A DNA stretch of 37,506 bases from the NCBI GenBank assembly GCA_022614955.1, contig JAKEHP010000163.1, forward strand, positions 1-37,506. Direction: 5' to 3'. Of the stretch, positions 3,690-37,506 are shown piece by piece; positions within the stretch are counted from its first letter, which is position 1, and each line of letters opens with the position of its first letter. Source of the DNA: Candidatus Methylomirabilota bacterium. GTDB lineage: Bacteria > Methylomirabilota > Methylomirabilia > Methylomirabilales > JACPAU01. Made by a program: the position numbers and the translations under genes. Under the pieces are notes generated by a model. The model did no database searches, was not told the DNA's origin, and saw only the letters and a program-made list of their open reading frames with translations.

Positions 3690-4785
3690 CCCGATCAGCA
3701 GCCCTGACGTAGGTCTGGCCCGGCAGTTGTCGGACGAACCCCGCCATCTCCAGGGCCAGGAGACCGGCCGCCACCCTCCCCGGGGGAAGCGCCGTGCGGG
3801 TCGCTACCGTATCAATGTGGGCCGGCTCGGCAGCCAGCGCCCCCCATACTAGCCGGGCCTCCTCTGGCAGCTCTTCGGGGAGGTCGAGGGGCGGGGCCGC
3901 CGCGGGCCTCACCCAGCCCGGGATCAGCTCCTCCAGCACGTCGGCCCAGTCCTCCGTGAGCTTTGCCCCCGCCTTGATGAGGCGGTTCGCCCCGGCCGAG
4001 GTGGGGGCTGTGACGGGGCCGGGGACAGCGAACACCTCCCGGTTCTGCTCCAGGGCGCAGCGGGCGGTCACGAGAGCCCCGCTCCGCTCCGCCGCCTCCA
4101 CCACAACCACGCCGCGGCAGAGCCCGCTGATGATCCGGTTGCGCCGGGGGAAGTTCACCGGCAGCGGCCGCGTCCCCAGGGGAAACTCGCTCAGGAGCGC
4201 TCCCCGGCGGACCACATTGTCGGCGAGGCCGCCCGACCCGGCGGGATAGGTCACGTCGAGGCCGCACCCCAGGACCCCCACTGTGACCCCTCCGGCGTGC
4301 AGCGCCCCCCGGTGGGCCGCCGCGTCGATCCCCCGGGCAAAGCCGCTCACCACCGCCACGCCGGCCCGGGCTAGGTCGCCGGCCAGCCGCTCCGCCACCA
4401 TCCTGCCATAGGGGGTGGCCTGCCGGGCCCCCACCACCGCGACCGCCATCTCCTCGGGTGAGGAAAGGCTCCCCCGGATGAAGAGGGCCGGGGGAGGATC
4501 CGGGATCTGGCGGAGCAGCGGCGGGTAGGTAGGGTCGGTGAGCGTGACGGCGGAGCACCCGAGGGCATCCAGGCGGCGGAGCTCGCGTCCTACCTCCTCG
4601 GCCAACGCGGGATCGCGGAGGCGCGCGGCCACCTCGCGCGTCACCCCGGGGACGGCGGTCAGGGCTTCGGGCGACGCGGTGCGGAGAGCCCGGGCCTCCC
4701 CGAATCGGGCCAGGAGGCCCGCTGCCCCTGCCGGCGGCAGGCCCGGGAGGAGGGCGAGGGCGACCAGGGCTTCCCGCTCCTCCAC
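3685..4785 (-). CDS. dprA: DNA-processing protein DprA (Smf)
   Basis: VAVVGARQATPYGRMVAERLAGDLARAGVAVVSGFARGIDAAAHRGAL...GVLGCGLDVTYP...FPRRNRIISGL...GSGALVTA-like DprA signature. Confidence 0.95.
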   Translation of the reverse strand: MEEREALVALALLPGLPPAGAAGLLARFGEARALRTASPEALTAVPGVTREVAARLRDPALAEEVGRELRRLDALGCSAVTLTDPTYPPLLRQIPDPPPALFIRGSLSSPEEMAVAVVGARQATPYGRMVAERLAGDLARAGVAVVSGFARGIDAAAHRGALHAGGVTVGVLGCGLDVTYPAGSGGLADNVVRRGALLSEFPLGTRPLPVNFPRRNRIISGLCRGVVVVEAAERSGALVTARCALEQNREVFAVPGPVTAPTSAGANRLIKAGAKLTEDWADVLEELIPGWVRPAAAPPLDLPEELPEEARLVWGALAAEPAHIDTVATRTALPPGRVAAGLLALEMAGFVRQLPGQTYVRAADRV

Positions 4786-4819: not shown

Positions 4820-6004
4820 TTACGGCATCTTCGCCGCCAGCCGGACGCGATCCCCGATCCGGAGGTCGAGGTCGCTCCGCAGGACCCGCGCCGTGGCGGT
4901 CCGCTCGGTCACCCGGACCACCACCAGCTCCCCCCGCAGGGTGGGGGTCAGGCGGATCGTCCCCCAGCCGCGGGGATCGGCGACGCGCCCGGTCTCCCGG
5001 TGGACCGAGAAGACATCGCCAGGGACAATGCCGGCCTTGAGCCCCAGGTCAATGTAGACCATGTGGAGCTCTCCCACCGAGACGCGGCTCAAGTCCGTGC
5101 GGACGATCATCCCGTCTGCACTGAGGGCGGTCGGAGCCGCCGTACCCAGCGCCGGGATCTCGCTCTCCTGGAACCGAAGGAGCGTATCCCCCGCGGTCAT
5201 GTCCTCACACCCGTAGATGACCTTCGCCCGGATGGACTGGTCCTGGACCTCCGTCACCTGGAGGAGTCCCCGGCCCCGAACGAAGCGTCCCAGGACGCCG
5301 CCGGCCCTGGGATGGGTGACCGGATTTTCCTGGCGGACGACCTGGAGCACCTCCCCCACCTGGACGGAGGTGCCGGAGCGGAGCGTCAGGAAGACCGTAT
5401 CGTGGGGCCCGATGGTGAAGCTATCGCGGAGCGGTCGGAGAATGTTCCCGACGCCCAGGGGCCCCCCCTCGTGGATGAACCCGAGGCAGATGGCCTGCCC
5501 GCGGGTCACGACAGGAATGACCGCCGGCGGGGGCGCGATCGTGGTCGGGGCTGGCTCCGGCTCCTGGGGTGCCACCGCGGGGGCGGCTGGAGCGGCTGGA
5601 GCGGCCGGCTCAGTCGGCGCGGCCGCAATCGGCTCCGGCGGGGCCGCGGGTGGAGCCACCGGTGCGGGGACGACTGCTGCCGGGGCTGCCGGCAGAGCGA
5701 CAGCCTCGGGCGCGGCCGGGACGAAGCCCGGGATGAAGAGGGGATCCCCCGGATAGATCCGATTCGGGTTGACGACGAACTTGTTTCGCTCCCAGATCCT
5801 GGGCCAGAGGAACGGGTTGTGCAGGAACTGACCGGAGAGGGTCCAGAGGTTGTCCCCGGGACGGACGACGTACACCCCCGCCGCCGCCTCGGCACTCGCC
5901 GGCGGCTCGGGGGCCGGGACCTGTTGCCCCTCGGCCTCCGGGCCGGCCAGAGTGAGGGTCAGGGCAGCGAGGAGTACCCCCGCCATCCGCATAGCCTTCC
6001 CCAT
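4820..6004 (-). CDS. Secreted LysM-domain protein with Ala/Pro-rich linker
   Basis: N-terminal signal peptide (MGKAMRMAGVLLAALTLTLAGPEAEG), LysM motif YVVRPGDNLWTLSGQFLHNPFLWPRIWERNKFVVNPNRIYPGDPLFIPG, then A/P-rich linker and C-terminal domain. ATG at 6004 has AGGAGG about 9 nt upstream, preferred over track start 6028. Confidence 0.85.
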   Translation of the reverse strand: MGKAMRMAGVLLAALTLTLAGPEAEGQQVPAPEPPASAEAAAGVYVVRPGDNLWTLSGQFLHNPFLWPRIWERNKFVVNPNRIYPGDPLFIPGFVPAAPEAVALPAAPAAVVPAPVAPPAAPPEPIAAAPTEPAAPAAPAAPAVAPQEPEPAPTTIAPPPAVIPVVTRGQAICLGFIHEGGPLGVGNILRPLRDSFTIGPHDTVFLTLRSGTSVQVGEVLQVVRQENPVTHPRAGGVLGRFVRGRGLLQVTEVQDQSIRAKVIYGCEDMTAGDTLLRFQESEIPALGTAAPTALSADGMIVRTDLSRVSVGELHMVYIDLGLKAGIVPGDVFSVHRETGRVADPRGWGTIRLTPTLRGELVVVRVTERTATARVLRSDLDLRIGDRVRLAAKMP

Positions 6005-6045
6005 TGCGATGCTCCTCCTCCCCGCCACCGGACCCGCCCCGCCCC

Positions 6046-30606: not shown

Positions 30607-32037
30607 TCAGCCCCGGGACCACCCCGGAGCCGCCTGCCGAACCCACCTGACCACGATCGCGGCGTCCTCGACGGTGATGATCCGGAAGAGAATCAGGAAG
30701 CCCCCGTAGACGAGGAGGGCGACCAGCGTTGCCGGTACCGACCCGACATCCCCCAGCATCCACAGGACCGCCCCTCCGGCGGCCGTGGCGCCGAGGCCGA
30801 CGAGGACAGGGCGGACGGGCGGCAGTATCCCCAGTTTTCGGCTCATAAGAAACGCGCCCAAGCCCACCAGGGCCGCCTCCGACGCCAGCGTTGCGGCGGC
30901 CGCCCCGACGGCGCCCCAGAGGGGGATGGCCCAGAGGTTCCCCGCCGCGTTCAGCGCCAGGCCACCCCCCAGGCTCGCCAGCCACCAGAGCTCCTGCCCG
31001 CGGGCCTGGAGCGCCGCCCCCAGGGGCGCGTAGAGCCAGTTGGCTGCGGCCGACCAGGCCAGGAGAACCAGGATCGGCGCTGCCACCGCAAACTCCGCCC
31101 CGTAGAGCACCCGGAGCAAGGGACCGGCCAGGCCGCTGAAGGTCAGGGCCATGGCCGGCGCCGCCGCGCCGAGGCCACGCATGGCCCGGCGAAAGGTGAC
31201 CGGCGCTCCCGGGTCTCGCCCCTGCGCCATGAGCGGGAACAGTGGCCCGGCCACTGTGCCTCCGAGGTACACGGCCAGGTTTGCCGGCTTGTAGGCGGCA
31301 CTGTAGAGGCCGAGGGCAGCGGTGGAGGCCATCTGCCCCAGGAGGAGAAAGTCCAGTCGCGTATACAGGCTCTGCACCGCGGCCGTGGCGCCGAACGGGG
31401 CGGCCTGACGGAGCAGGGCACGGATGCCGAGATGCTGGGCCGCACCGGTGGGGAGGAACGGGATGGCGGCCCGTCTCGCCACCACCACTGCCACCCCCGC
31501 CGCCAGGACGTGCGCCCAGAGGAACGCCGCCACGCCACCATGCAACGCGCCGGCCGCAAGGAGAGACGAGGTCCCGGCGACGCCGGCAGCCAGCTCGACC
31601 ACCGCGACCCAGTCGTAGCGCGCGCGGCCACTCAGGACCGCCAGGTAGGGCCAGCTCAGGGTTCCAACGGCCAGTTGCGCCGCTGCCAGCGCCACATACC
31701 CGACGGGGACCGGTTGCCCTGGGAGGATCGCCGCGAAGGCGGGAATGGCGATCAGGACGCCGCCTGCCAGGAGTGCCTGCGCGCGCACCGCAGCCCGTAG
31801 CACGCCGGCCCCGGCGTCCGGGCCCTGAGCGATGGTGCGGGTGACAACGGTACTAATCCCCAGGTTCGGCAGGAGCCCGAAGATGGCCGCGACCCCCATG
31901 GCGTAGGCGTAGGCCCCGAGACGCTCCACCCCGAGGACTCGGGCCAGGATCACGGAATTTGCCAGCGCCAGGACGTACCCCGCCGCGCGGCCGATCAAGA
32001 GCAGGGTGGTGACCCGGCCGAGCGAGATCCCGCTCAT
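30607..32037 (-). CDS. Wzx-like oligosaccharide flippase (MATE/polysaccharide transporter superfamily)
   Basis: GRVTTLLLIGRAAGYVLALANSVILARVLGVERLGAYAYAMGVAAIFGLLPNLGISTVVTRTIAQ, with about 12-14 TM segments. ATGA overlap with the upstream ligase gene. Confidence 0.9.
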   Translation of the reverse strand: MSGISLGRVTTLLLIGRAAGYVLALANSVILARVLGVERLGAYAYAMGVAAIFGLLPNLGISTVVTRTIAQGPDAGAGVLRAAVRAQALLAGGVLIAIPAFAAILPGQPVPVGYVALAAAQLAVGTLSWPYLAVLSGRARYDWVAVVELAAGVAGTSSLLAAGALHGGVAAFLWAHVLAAGVAVVVARRAAIPFLPTGAAQHLGIRALLRQAAPFGATAAVQSLYTRLDFLLLGQMASTAALGLYSAAYKPANLAVYLGGTVAGPLFPLMAQGRDPGAPVTFRRAMRGLGAAAPAMALTFSGLAGPLLRVLYGAEFAVAAPILVLLAWSAAANWLYAPLGAALQARGQELWWLASLGGGLALNAAGNLWAIPLWGAVGAAAATLASEAALVGLGAFLMSRKLGILPPVRPVLVGLGATAAGGAVLWMLGDVGSVPATLVALLVYGGFLILFRIITVEDAAIVVRWVRQAAPGWSRG

Positions 32038-33464
32038 GACCAGCGTACCCGGACCAACCGGGCGGCGCTCCCCGCCGCCGGGGGCGTCGTTCCGTGCCCG
32101 ATCCACCCCGACCCCAGCACGACGATGACCCCGGTCATGAACCAGAACGGCTCCATGATCCGGACGATGATGAATGTGTTGGCGCCGATCCCGTGAACCA
32201 TAACGCCCACCATGCCGGCCAGGTAGCCGGCGGCCAGCCCCCGGCGCCAGCCGGGGAGGGCCGCGGTGAGGCTGCGCCGCGCCTGCTGCACCAGGCGCGT
32301 GAGAAGCCAGACGAAGACGGCGAACCCCGTGAGGCCGGTTTCCACCAGGACCCGGACGTACTGGGCGTCCATGAACCGGAAGCCCGTCACCCCGTGCCCG
32401 AAGATCGGGGCCTGGCTCCACCCGGCGAGCCCTTCAGTCCAGCTCTCGAACCGGGCAGAGGTGGAGGTGTCGAGGCGCACCCCGCCCACCTCCACCTGGC
32501 CGCGCTCCGCCGGCTGCGCATAGGTGTACCGGATCCGCTGAATGACCGCCTCCGGCGCGAGGAGAGGGCCCACCAGCAGGGCGGCGGAGAGGAGGCCGAG
32601 CAGCAGCCCCCGGCGCTGGAGCGTCAGCAGGAGGGTCAGGAGCATCGGGAGGGTAGCCAGCCAGGAGGCTCGGGAGAGGCTGTACAGCAGGGGGAGGAAG
32701 GCCAGCCCGCTCAGCCAGAGCCACCCCAGGCGGCTGTAGAGCCCCGGGCTCTCGCTGGCAAGCCCCAGGAGGATCGCCAGCATGAAGACCAGATAGCCCC
32801 CCAGGGTATTCGGCTCCCCCTCCTTCCCCTCAAAGGGTGCCGTCACCCGCCCCCCGGCCGGGATCTGCGCCAGGGCGAAGATGGACACCAGGGCCGTCGT
32901 CAGGGCGACGGTGAAGAGGAACCGCTTGAGCTGTCGCTCCTCCGTCAGGTGGTTGACGACCAGGAAGTAGACGACGAAGTACTCCAGGTACTTGAGGACG
33001 AAGAAGAGCCCGGTCACCGGCCGGACGCTCCCGAAGAGGATCCCCAGGCCGGTGGAAACGATGCAGGAGACCGCGTACAGGAGGATGGCGCCGTTCAGCG
33101 GCGTCTGACGGATGAGACCGAGCTGCTTGTAGACGGCCATCCGGGTAAGCCAGGAGAAGCCCACGATGACCAGGGTCACGTCCTCGATCCGGATTGCGAC
33201 CCCCCGGCTCGCCTCCAGCGAGCCGGCGGCGGCTGGCTGGGACAGGAGGATCTCTGGGGAGAGGAGCATGGACAGGATGATGATGTGGAGCGCCGCCTCC
33301 GTGTGGACGAAGGCCACCACGAAGAGGGCAACGCCGAGCCCGACGGCCAGCGCCACGCCGGGGGTGAAGTGGGAGACGAAGAGGGCCAGGAGGAGGGTCA
33401 GGGTGCCGATGCCGAGGAGGGTCGCCGCCTGGGTCCGGTCCAGCGCGCGCGGCAGCGCAGGCAT
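32034..33464 (-). CDS. O-antigen ligase / Wzy-type polymerase family membrane protein
   Basis: Polytopic. EGEPNTLGGYLVFMLAILLGL...LLYSLSRASWLATLPMLLTLLL...RFESWTEGLAGWSQAPIFGHGVTGFRFMDAQYVRVLVETGLTGFAVFVWLL, the O-antigen ligase family signature. Confidence 0.9.
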   Translation of the reverse strand: MPALPRALDRTQAATLLGIGTLTLLLALFVSHFTPGVALAVGLGVALFVVAFVHTEAALHIIILSMLLSPEILLSQPAAAGSLEASRGVAIRIEDVTLVIVGFSWLTRMAVYKQLGLIRQTPLNGAILLYAVSCIVSTGLGILFGSVRPVTGLFFVLKYLEYFVVYFLVVNHLTEERQLKRFLFTVALTTALVSIFALAQIPAGGRVTAPFEGKEGEPNTLGGYLVFMLAILLGLASESPGLYSRLGWLWLSGLAFLPLLYSLSRASWLATLPMLLTLLLTLQRRGLLLGLLSAALLVGPLLAPEAVIQRIRYTYAQPAERGQVEVGGVRLDTSTSARFESWTEGLAGWSQAPIFGHGVTGFRFMDAQYVRVLVETGLTGFAVFVWLLTRLVQQARRSLTAALPGWRRGLAAGYLAGMVGVMVHGIGANTFIIVRIMEPFWFMTGVIVVLGSGWIGHGTTPPAAGSAARLVRVRWS

Positions 33465-33473
33465 GGCCGCCTT

Positions 33474-36470
33474 CTACCGCTCGACCACGGCGGCGGCCCC
33501 GTAAGCCGCCAGGGCGGCTGCCACCGCGGCCCCCTCCTGACGCGTCCGGAAGGCCTGGAGAAGCCAGCGGCGGTCGGCCCCCTCCCCTACCTCCTCGGGG
33601 AGGTACCCCAGGGCTTCGCACTTCTCTCGGAGCGCCCGGGCCGCCTCGGGCTCATCGGGGGGGGTCAGCTCGAGGGCGAAGGGGAGGCGGTGAACGGCGA
33701 AGTCCTCCACGACCGTCTGGGCCTTCAGGGCTGCGGCCGCCACCCTGGCCTCCGCGGCGCTCCGGTAGCGCCCCAGGTAGACGCGCCGGACCTTGAGTCC
33801 CTCCGGGCTCACGGTAGGGAGGGTGAAGGCCGGGTGGCCGGCGGCCCGCAGGCGGCGGGTCTCCTTGAGAGCCTTCGCCGGCGCCTCGAAGGAGGAGACC
33901 TGGAGGGCGAACGGCGCCGGGCCGGCCGTGGTCTCCGGCCGATCCGCCCCTCCGGGGGCAGGTTGCACTGCCTCCGCGGTGGGGGGTGCGGGCGCGGCTC
34001 GCGGGGCGGGCGGGACGGGCCGGATCTGGGCCAGGGGGGGCGGCAGGCCCTCGGCCGGCCGGGCCGCCGCCCCTGCGGCAGGCCCGGCTGGCGCCGGAGC
34101 CGGCGGGGCCGGAGAAGTTTCCAGAGGGCGAGCGGGCTTTGCCGCTTGGGGGATCGGGGATGGCATCTGTGCCGCCCGCGGCGGGAGCGCATCGCGCGTT
34201 TGCGTCTGGGTCGCGGGAGACGGGTTCCCGCCGGATGGCTGCGGGGCGGCGGGCGCGGGCCCGGTTTCACCCTTCGGCGCGAGAGGCCGCTCGGCCGGCG
34301 GGGCCGGGGGCTCGGGGGGGGTGGGCCGACGCAGCCGCTCCTGGAGGCGCTCGGCCGGTCGGGTCGGGGGGTTGGGGGCGAAGAGGAGCCCCTCGCGCCA
34401 GGCGAGGAGGGCCGCCGCGAGGAGGACGCCAAGGACCACCAAGAGCAGGGTCCTCTTCAGCTTCCCGGGGGCCTGCCCCAGCGTCTTCAGCCAGCCTTTC
34501 ACCCGCTCGGCCCGCGCCACAGGGCGGCGGGGCGCCTCGCCCCGGGGGCCCGGCTCCCCGCGGTAGGCGTACCGGTAGTACTCCATGTCCTGGTAGTCCG
34601 AGCTGACCTCGGAGCGGAGGCCGGTCAGGACCACGCCCAGGACTCTGACCCGGACATTCTCCATCAGGGTCTTGACCCGCCGCAGGGCCGCGCGGGCCAC
34701 CCTTCCAACTCGGTAAATGATGAGGCAGCCGTCCGTCTTGGCCGCCAGGATGAGGGCATCGGTCACCGGAAGGACCGGCGAGCAGTCGAAGATGACCGCG
34801 TCGTAGGCGTCGCGGAAGGCCCGGATGAGTTCGGCCATCTGCTGGGAGTTGAGGAACTCGGCCGGGTTCGGGGGGGGATTGCCACTGGTCAGGATGTGGA
34901 GGTTGTCGATCCCCGGCGCCGTCACCACCTTCTCCAACCCCAGCTTCCCCAGCATCAGGTCAGTGGCGGTCCGGAGGACGTCCGTCCACTGGTAGGTCCC
35001 GATGATGACCTCGGCCAGGCCGGGATCCTTGGGGATGCCGAAGGCGTGGTGTATGTAGGGCCTCCGCAGGTCGGCCTCAACGAGCAGGATCCTGCGCCCC
35101 ATCTGGGCCATGCTGATGGCCAGGTTAATGGCCGTGGTGGTCTTCCCCTCGCTGAGGGAGGCGGAGGTGACCACGATCGTCTTCAGATCCTTCTCCAAGC
35201 GGAGGAACTCCAGGTTGGTGCGGAGCGAGCGGTAGGCCTCGGCGATGGTGGACCTGGGCAGGAGCAGGGAGACGAGAAACGCGTACCGCTCCACCACGCC
35301 CTCGTCAATGGCCTTCGGGTCCACCTCCCCCCCCTCCTGGATCTCCTTGGCCACGTCAATGTTGGGGATGAGACCCAGGACCGGGGCCTGCAGGTACGCT
35401 TCCACGTCCTCGATGGTGCCGATGGAGGTATCCATGGTTTCCACCACGAAGGCCAGGACCAGGCCGAGCGTCAGGCCCACCACGAGCCCCACGAGGGTCT
35501 TGGCCGCCGTCTGGGGGAGGTTGCTCGGCCTCGGCGGTGCCGTAGCCGGACGGACGATGCTCACCTCCTCCACCTGCTCTCGCTCCCGGATCATCGCCTC
35601 CTGGTGCTTCCCCTTCAGGAGGGCGTAGAGATCCTCGTGGACCTTCACCTCCCGCTGCAGGCGGGCAAACTGCAGGGCCGTCTCCGGCAGCTCCCGCTGG
35701 CGCTGCTCCAGGACCCGCCGCACCCCCTCGATCCGGGTCTCCAGGGCCTGCACCTGGGGATGCGCCGGCAGCAGGTCCACCAGGAGCGCCTCCCGCTCGA
35801 GCTGCAGCGCCACCAGTTGGTTCAGGGCGGCGCTCGTCTCCTCGGGGAGCGAGACGAAACGCCGCCGCTCCTTCAGGGTCTTCAGCTCCTCCTCGGAGTC
35901 CCGGAGGCGGGCGCCCACTTCGGTGAGCTGCTCCTCGATGAAAAGGCGCGCCTCCCGGACCTGCTTGGTTCGGGTGGCGATGTTCTCCTCCCGGAAGGCC
36001 TCGGCCACCGCGTTTGCGGTCCGGGCCGCCTGCTCCGCCTCCGGCGCGGTCGCGGTGATGTTGATGATGTTGGTGCTCCCCTCCTGCTCCGCCTTGACCG
36101 CCTCCTGGAAGTGCGCGATGACCTGGAGGTGGGGAGGGGCGTTGCGGACCTCGCGGCTGGACAGGTCAGCGCGGATGCGGCCCAGCTTCTTCGCCGCCCG
36201 CTCCATGACCGGGAAGGATCTGATGAGGGCGGCCTGGGTGGCGAGGTTGTCGCCGGAGGAGAAGGTGATGGCCTCTACGAGGAGGCCGGTGAGGCTGGAG
36301 GCCTTCTCCACCCGGACGCTGGCGACCGCTTGGAAGACCGGGTTGGGGCGCTGGAGCTCCGCCAGGCCGGCAGAGAAGACGGCAAAGGCCAGCGGCACGG
36401 CGATGACGATCAGCTTCCGCCGGCGGATGATCCGCCAGTAGTCCCGGAGGTTGATCTCGTACTGCGCCAC
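33474..36470 (-). CDS. Wzc-like polysaccharide co-polymerase / BY-type tyrosine autokinase with C-terminal third TM, Pro-rich linker and tandem SPOR-like domains (998 aa)
   Basis: N-terminal Wzz domain (EINLRDYWRIIRRRKLIVIAVPLAFAVF), second TM, kinase Walker A (VVTSASLSEGKTTTAINLA), Walker A' (ILLVEADLRRP), YDAVIFDCSP, tyrosine cluster DYQDMEYYRYAYR, third TM (TLLLVVLGVLLAAALLAW), P/A-rich linker, then PFALQVSSFEAPAKALKETRRLRAAGHPAF...VYLGRYRSAAEARVAAAALK. Confidence 0.92.
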   Translation of the reverse strand: MAQYEINLRDYWRIIRRRKLIVIAVPLAFAVFSAGLAELQRPNPVFQAVASVRVEKASSLTGLLVEAITFSSGDNLATQAALIRSFPVMERAAKKLGRIRADLSSREVRNAPPHLQVIAHFQEAVKAEQEGSTNIINITATAPEAEQAARTANAVAEAFREENIATRTKQVREARLFIEEQLTEVGARLRDSEEELKTLKERRRFVSLPEETSAALNQLVALQLEREALLVDLLPAHPQVQALETRIEGVRRVLEQRQRELPETALQFARLQREVKVHEDLYALLKGKHQEAMIREREQVEEVSIVRPATAPPRPSNLPQTAAKTLVGLVVGLTLGLVLAFVVETMDTSIGTIEDVEAYLQAPVLGLIPNIDVAKEIQEGGEVDPKAIDEGVVERYAFLVSLLLPRSTIAEAYRSLRTNLEFLRLEKDLKTIVVTSASLSEGKTTTAINLAISMAQMGRRILLVEADLRRPYIHHAFGIPKDPGLAEVIIGTYQWTDVLRTATDLMLGKLGLEKVVTAPGIDNLHILTSGNPPPNPAEFLNSQQMAELIRAFRDAYDAVIFDCSPVLPVTDALILAAKTDGCLIIYRVGRVARAALRRVKTLMENVRVRVLGVVLTGLRSEVSSDYQDMEYYRYAYRGEPGPRGEAPRRPVARAERVKGWLKTLGQAPGKLKRTLLLVVLGVLLAAALLAWREGLLFAPNPPTRPAERLQERLRRPTPPEPPAPPAERPLAPKGETGPAPAAPQPSGGNPSPATQTQTRDALPPRAAQMPSPIPQAAKPARPLETSPAPPAPAPAGPAAGAAARPAEGLPPPLAQIRPVPPAPRAAPAPPTAEAVQPAPGGADRPETTAGPAPFALQVSSFEAPAKALKETRRLRAAGHPAFTLPTVSPEGLKVRRVYLGRYRSAAEARVAAAALKAQTVVEDFAVHRLPFALELTPPDEPEAARALREKCEALGYLPEEVGEGADRRWLLQAFRTRQEGAAVAAALAAYGAAAVVER

Positions 36471-36476
36471 GGGGAC

Positions 36477-37506
36477 CTAGTCCTTTAGCGTCTCGTACAC
36501 GATGACCGGCTGCAGGCCGAGCGTGATGAACTCCAGGGTCGGCCGGATCTTGGCCAGGAAGGCGTTCCAGTTCCCGAGGCCGCTGCGGGGAACGATGACG
36601 ATGTCCCGAGGCTGCAGGCGGACATCCTGCCGCAGGTCGCCGCGGCGGACCAGGCCCTCCACGTCGGCCGTGAGGACGGTGGGCGCGTCGCGGAGGTTCC
36701 CCCGGATGATCCGGGTGGCGTCCCCGGCGGCCACCTCGGTGATCCCGCCAGCCTCCGCGATCACCTCCGCCAGGGTCATGCCGCTCCGGTATGGAACGGT
36801 CCCGGGCTTCAGGACCTCGCCGAAGATGAACACCTTCCGCTCGGCCCCGGGCGGGCGGGTGGGGATGAAGACGAAATCGTCGGCGTCCAGGACCAGGTCC
36901 CGGGACCGCTCTCCCTCCCCCACCACCGCAAAGAGATTCACCGTGACGGACCGGCCGTCCCCCCGGGTCACCTGGATGTGTTCCAGGTCCGCCTCCTGAG
37001 AGACCCCACCGACGCTCGCCAGGAACTCGCTGAGGCTGCTCCTCCCCCGCAGCGGGTAGACCCCGGACCCCCGGCCGCCGATGGCGCCTACTGCCCCCAG
37101 GATCGTGACCTTCTTGCTGTTGAACTCCTTGACCAGGACCTCGACCCGGGGGCTGCGGTAGTAGGCGCCGAGGGCTCGCTCGATCACCCGGCCTGCCTGT
37201 TCGGCCGTGAGCCCCCCGATGGTCACGACGACGAAGAGGACCCGAACGCTCCCGTCTGTCCGAACCGTCAGGGTGAGGCGGTCCTGGGTGACACCCCGGG
37301 AGAGGAGGATCTCCAGTAGATCACCAGGGCCGATCCGGTACTGGGGAATCCCATCCACGACGGTAAAGGTCTGGTTTTCCAGGACTTCTGGCGGCGCCGG
37401 CGCGTGGGGGGTTCCGGGGGCCTCAGGGGCAGGACCGCCGGCAGGCCCGGAGGCGAGGGTCGGCGCGGGCGAGGGGGGCAGCGGGGTCGCGCAGGCCGCG
37501 AGCGTC
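36477..37506 (-). CDS. Wza-like polysaccharide export outer-membrane lipoprotein, 5' end cut by right window edge
   Basis: YRIGPGDLLEILLSR...YYRSPRVEVLVKEFNSKKVTILGAVGAIGGRGSGVYPLRGRSSLSEFLASVGGV...VFIFGEVLKPGTVPYRSGMTLAEVIAEAGGIT (Poly_export + SLBB-like). Frame stays open to the edge, where it reads TLAAC (lipobox-like), so the track start at 37358 is internal. Confidence 0.92.
   Translation of the reverse strand, partial: TLAACATPLPPSPAPTLASGPAGGPAPEAPGTPHAPAPPEVLENQTFTVVDGIPQYRIGPGDLLEILLSRGVTQDRLTLTVRTDGSVRVLFVVVTIGGLTAEQAGRVIERALGAYYRSPRVEVLVKEFNSKKVTILGAVGAIGGRGSGVYPLRGRSSLSEFLASVGGVSQEADLEHIQVTRGDGRSVTVNLFAVVGEGERSRDLVLDADDFVFIPTRPPGAERKVFIFGEVLKPGTVPYRSGMTLAEVIAEAGGITEVAAGDATRIIRGNLRDAPTVLTADVEGLVRRGDLRQDVRLQPRDIVIVPRSGLGNWNAFLAKIRPTLEFITLGLQPVIVYETLKD

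Follow-up and report, generated by a model that had tools for sequence, protein, structure and literature searches.

Described Systems Related to the Locus

Co-polymerases of the Wzc/Etk type (PCP-2a), including the Wzc proteins of E. coli K30 and K-12, combine a Wzz domain, two transmembrane (TM) helices, a cytoplasmic kinase domain bearing Walker motifs, and a tyrosine-rich tail, and are encoded in operons with Wza and Wzy. A different architecture is found in the E. coli divisome proteins DedD, DamX, and FtsN, which have no kinase and in which a TM helix is followed by a proline-rich linker and a periplasmic, C-terminal SPOR domain. The Wzc octamer is held together partly by the tyrosine tail, which reaches into the active site of the neighboring subunit, and phosphorylation leads to its disassembly; in the Wzc model the free C-terminal tail moves through that active site (PMC8285477). 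Another BY-kinase system, CpsC/CpsD (Wzd/Wze) of Streptococcus pneumoniae, sets capsule synthesis at the septum (PMC4574921, PMC9216600, PMC10233549); this two-protein, Gram-positive system is recruited by divisome-associated proteins, and no SPOR domain is mentioned for it. The protein described here shares the Wzz domain, the Walker-motif kinase, the tyrosine cluster, and the Wza/Wzy operon with Wzc/Etk; unlike Wzc, a protein with two TM helices whose chain stops at the tyrosine tail (PMC8285477), it adds a third TM helix, a linker, and two SPOR repeats.

Domain Architecture of the Kinase

The gene lies at 33474..36470 on the minus strand of the window (the whole stretch of DNA analyzed, 37,506 nucleotides), the strand to which the coordinates of all its parts refer, and was delimited by the ORF listing, profile matches, and structure alignment. 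It has a GTG start codon and encodes 998 amino acids. The N-terminal region contains TM1 (residues ~20-37, 36360..36413), read by eye from the sequence, as was the RRRK motif that precedes it and points to an N-terminus inside the cell. The Wzz domain (Pfam PF02706) covers residues 5-95 (36186..36458) and the GNVR domain (PF13807) residues 267-342 (35445..35672), with TM2 at the end of the latter (residues ~322-344). The cytoplasmic kinase domain (AAA_31, residues 431-606, 34653..35180) was recognized by PF13614, by the NCBIfam eps_fam model TIGR01007 (158.9 bits, passing the cut-off of 108.05), and by comparison with Wzc structures, residues 117-645 aligning to 9r62 and 7nhr with an E-value of 1.7e-48; its Walker A motif, SEGKTTTA, starts at residue 440. 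Five tyrosines (Y626, Y631, Y632, Y634, and Y636; 34563..34595) form a cluster in an internal position away from the C-terminus of the protein. Its Wzz, GNVR, and Walker-motif kinase domains, together with the tyrosine cluster, make the protein a Wzc-type BY-kinase, and the Pfam, NCBIfam, and structural matches agree with the first-pass annotation, which had described a complete Wzz-TM-TM-kinase protein running on past its tyrosines. Plain members of this type have two TM helices and a cytoplasmic C-terminus; the protein has a third helix at residues 674-691 and is therefore classed as a variant.

This third helix, TM3 (KLKRTLLLVVLGVLLAAALLAWREG, 34398..34451), has a mean hydropathy of 2.3 and occupies exactly the position first proposed for it. 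It is separated from the last tyrosine by ~38 residues and immediately preceded by KLKR, which places the positive side inside, and a hydrophobic stretch ahead of the linker was present in all 37 tails measured. The linker that follows (residues 692-850, 33921..34397) is 30% Pro and 23% Ala, bearing out the Pro/Ala-rich composition noted initially. From hydropathy and positive-inside charge, the basis of the topology, the best prediction is an N-terminus in the cytoplasm, TM1, a periplasmic Wzz domain, TM2, a cytoplasmic kinase, TM3, and a periplasmic tail. The periplasmic C-terminus that had been proposed is thus the placement best predicted from TM3, and the SPOR region would therefore lie in the compartment that contains peptidoglycan.

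The C-terminal region had been described as a single SPOR-like domain, of which the SPOR identity was upheld and the number was revised to two. SPOR1 (residues about 851-918, 33717..33920) matched PF05036 in the whole protein with an E-value of 1.1e-9 and a score of 38.9 bits (cut-off 21), well beyond what chance would give, and the C-terminal 153 amino acids alone matched with an E-value of 6.5e-12. The same model matched 21 of the 21 tails tested, that of the window included. The segment after it (residues about 925-998, 33477..33698) was below the Pfam threshold when searched alone in the window's protein; in an hhalign comparison of the two tail halves, its profile aligned with that of SPOR1 over 74 columns at 97% probability, and by this profile homology it is assigned as a second, degenerate SPOR repeat (SPOR2). 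The tail profile also matched SPOR structures of CwlC (1x60), FtsN (1uta), and, weakly, DedD (6ztg), the SPOR1 profile sharing the FtsN and DedD matches. AlphaFold models computed without an alignment were of low confidence (pLDDT 50 for the tail and 54 for SPOR1 alone); the order of their secondary-structure elements fits the RNP-like beta-alpha-beta-beta-alpha-beta arrangement, and their best Foldseek matches, among them the SPOR domains of DedD and RlpA, were non-significant.

Genomic Context

The kinase gene is located between homologues of wza and wzy, a position also found in orthologues without the tail. Upstream, a Wza-type export protein with Poly_export and SLBB domain matches is encoded at 36477..37505 (minus strand); the window ends at 37506, inside this gene, which is cut by the contig end, and the start of the operon falls outside the window. 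Downstream are genes for a Wzy-type polymerase (Wzy_C, 32034..33464, minus strand) and a Wzx-type flippase (Polysacc_synt, 30607..32421, minus strand; the listed ORF probably starts too early), both identified with Pfam. The wza, wzc, wzy, and wzx homologues thus stand side by side, as in a Wzx/Wzy-type export locus, and from this context and its domains the protein is predicted to be the tyrosine autokinase and co-polymerase of an exopolysaccharide system of that type. In the genome there are two Amidase_3 genes, the products of which could be the makers of denuded glycan.

A layout unlike that of the window was observed at locus L083 (437-4134, genome G039), where extra genes lie between wza and the kinase gene. 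One of them encodes an ATPase matching TIGR03015 (XrtA/PEP-CTERM-associated) with 231.8 bits, below the cut-off of 324.5, and the second intervening ORF matches a c-di-GMP phosphodiesterase response-regulator model, also below cut-off. At further loci of this family, the spacing between wza and the kinase gene points to a similar layout.

Conservation within the Phylum

Relatives carrying the kinase domain were sought in 96 genomes of the window's phylum. Among the fetched loci, kinase, TM3, and SPOR were encoded in a single frame in 39 genomes, including that of the window, and the tail profile was matched at an E-value of 1e-40 or better in 44, in some cases by fragments at contig edges. The whole protein was present in a congener (G003), with 82% identity over the full length, and in a genome from a different family of the same order (G013). 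When a tree was built from the Wzz and kinase regions, the phylum's tail-bearing proteins all grouped with four tail-less ones, a topology that fits a single gain and at least two losses. TM3 and SPOR were both absent from the orthologues L078-L081, encoded at the same locus, and no separate SPOR ORF was found beside the kinase gene of tail-less subfamily members within the fetched stretches. A search for related loci yielded one distant kinase match only. Between the window and its congener, dN/dS was 0.14 for the kinase, 0.17 for SPOR2, 0.34 for SPOR1, and 0.53 for the linker; the kinase and both SPOR repeats are under purifying selection.

Other arrangements were also observed. Locus L137 (G040) has a frame ending near 4672 with the order TM-linker-SPOR-SPOR, homologous to the tail of the kinase and with no kinase match within the 10 kb fetched, a free-standing tail. 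At L138 (G068) the kinase and the tail are in different frames, owing to a frameshift near TM3 that may be natural or assembly-made, and genome G054 has two members (L112 and L092), one with the full tail and the other with TM3 and a reduced C-terminus.

Distribution beyond the Phylum

A search of about 297 further genomes with the tail profile found no tail with a kinase attached, and none of 20 BY-kinases from other phyla, picked with a general model, had a clear TM3. Forms with TM3 outside the phylum were revealed when the window's own kinase domain was used as the query. Four genomes (G234, G392, G101, and G149) encode kinase, TM3, linker, and SPOR, with Pfam E-values for the SPOR domain from 2.2e-5 to 3.6e-12, all above the cut-off, and four others (G136, G312, G186, and G142) encode a TM3-like helix without SPOR. 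The fusion had been considered limited to one phylum, a view overturned by this search. Together with the 39 genomes of the phylum, the four outside it show that homologues share the extension, and according to these searches the Wzc-SPOR fusion has been conserved across several phyla, in dozens of species.

All TM3 forms fell in one clade of the kinase tree (36 rows, support 99/96), and none of the BY-kinases sampled outside it had TM3. Within this clade the presence of TM3 and SPOR varies among members, and one gain followed by many losses and repeated gains appear to fit it equally well. Outside the subfamily, L147 (G181) has a long kinase frame with a tail without a clear TM helix, its best 19-residue hydropathy being 0.7. 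ExeA-like and FimV-like proteins of other phyla (L131, L132, and L134; named by eye), which are large membrane or ATPase proteins, were also observed to carry SPOR repeats; unlike in the window's protein, no BY-kinase domain was seen in them. In the open-access papers searched no description of a Wzc-SPOR fusion was found, in line with the initial statement that none was known, and the one paper in which "SPOR domain" and Wzc co-occur gives them as separate genes.

Glycan-Contact Residues of the SPOR Repeats

RlpA holds the glycan through Q270, the backbone of A273, F274, and an arginine patch, and in DamX the contacts include Q351 and S354 (PMC6895207). Matched by motif position, Q857, S860, and F861 of the window's SPOR1 correspond to Q270/A273/F274 of RlpA and Q351/S354 of DamX, and the arginine of its RV motif is invariant among the tails with glutamine. 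The key glutamine is replaced by glutamate in 33 of the 37 SPOR1 tails scored, all in one large sister family, whose SPOR1 reads YAVLIER where the window's reads RRVYLGR; in other SPOR domains of the same genomes it is kept in 35 of 37, the two exceptions being second repeats. Because Gln, Ser, Phe, and Arg are retained in the window's SPOR1 and Gln is changed to Glu in the sister family, canonical glycan binding is a reasonable prediction for the former and doubtful for the latter, the ligand of which may differ from denuded glycan. SPOR2 is degenerate but strongly constrained.

Proposed Role of the Tail and Alternative Explanations

Taken as a whole, the sequence evidence makes it reasonably likely that the tail anchors the export complex from the periplasm to amidase-processed peptidoglycan, with a septal bias, and that the tethered tyrosine loop may bias phosphorylation. 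The third crossing of the inner membrane would carry the SPOR tail into the periplasm, where the tail of the window's lineage would bind peptidoglycan strands stripped of their peptides by amidases; the Wza-Wzc-Wzy complex would thereby be anchored to remodeled cell wall and biased towards the division site. The tyrosine cluster would lie in a loop held by the kinase on one side and by TM3 on the other. Because it is fixed in this way, anchoring might in addition bias the cycle of phosphorylation through which the octamer forms and comes apart. For the Wzc model this poses a question of mechanics, as the tyrosine tail here is not free. A precedent comes from S. pneumoniae, in which a BY-kinase system directs capsule synthesis to the septum (PMC4574921, PMC10233549). 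If a co-polymerase carried a peptidoglycan-binding tail of its own, a single protein would link export to the wall, and the fusion suggests that a physical connection between polysaccharide export and the cell wall is possible.

A wider proposal, possible if doubtful, is that a BY-kinase subfamily spread over several phyla senses the wall: bound to glycan bared by amidases, SPOR would pull on TM3 and the tyrosine loop, and remodeling of peptidoglycan at division would in this way gate phosphorylation, octamer assembly, and export. Simple septal targeting for the whole family is countered by the glutamate in 33 of the 37 SPOR1 domains scored and by several close orthologues without a tail. Within the family there are natural controls for these ideas: SPOR1 domains with Gln or with Glu, members that have TM3 but lack SPOR, and orthologues that occupy the same locus and carry no tail.

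It is rather unlikely that the tail acts instead as a general anchor or scaffold in the envelope, with a partner other than denuded glycan, such as the exported polysaccharide, Wza, or another envelope protein, and with no division-site role. The change from Gln to Glu in the large sister family, with YAVLIER in place of RRVYLGR, speaks for such an anchor, as does a SPOR2 that is degenerate everywhere yet has a dN/dS of 0.17, suggestive of a role other than canonical glycan binding; on the other hand, PF05036 still matches all tails tested, and Gln, Ser, Phe, and Arg are all present in the window's SPOR1. Quite improbable is a scheme in which re-anchoring of the tyrosine tail by TM3, as a brake on autophosphorylation, is the main role and SPOR is secondary and dispensable. 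Five proteins with TM3 and no recognizable SPOR (L126, L171, L172, L173, and L177) and the several SPOR gains or losses required by the kinase tree are consistent with this scheme, whereas the conservation and constraint of SPOR1 and SPOR2, and the absence of TM3 and SPOR together from L078-L081, as if they were one unit, argue against it. Joining of separate kinase and SPOR genes by misassembly or a frameshift has a negligible probability even in a fragmented assembly (624 contigs, 8.3% contamination), as assembly error is ruled out by the occurrence of the same fusion in 38 further genomes from the phylum and four outside it, and by the 82% identity of the congener over the full length; the kinase tree, the wza-kinase-wzy synteny, and the purifying selection are in agreement with this.

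Other Features of the Window

Between dprA and a SIS-domain gene, near secDF, the window encodes a protein with LysM and FlgT_C-like regions (4820-6028, minus strand), which by its domains is possibly another envelope-linked protein. On the plus strand, opposite the kinase gene, an open frame of 1464 amino acids extends over 32094-36488 and is probably a GC-rich shadow ORF.
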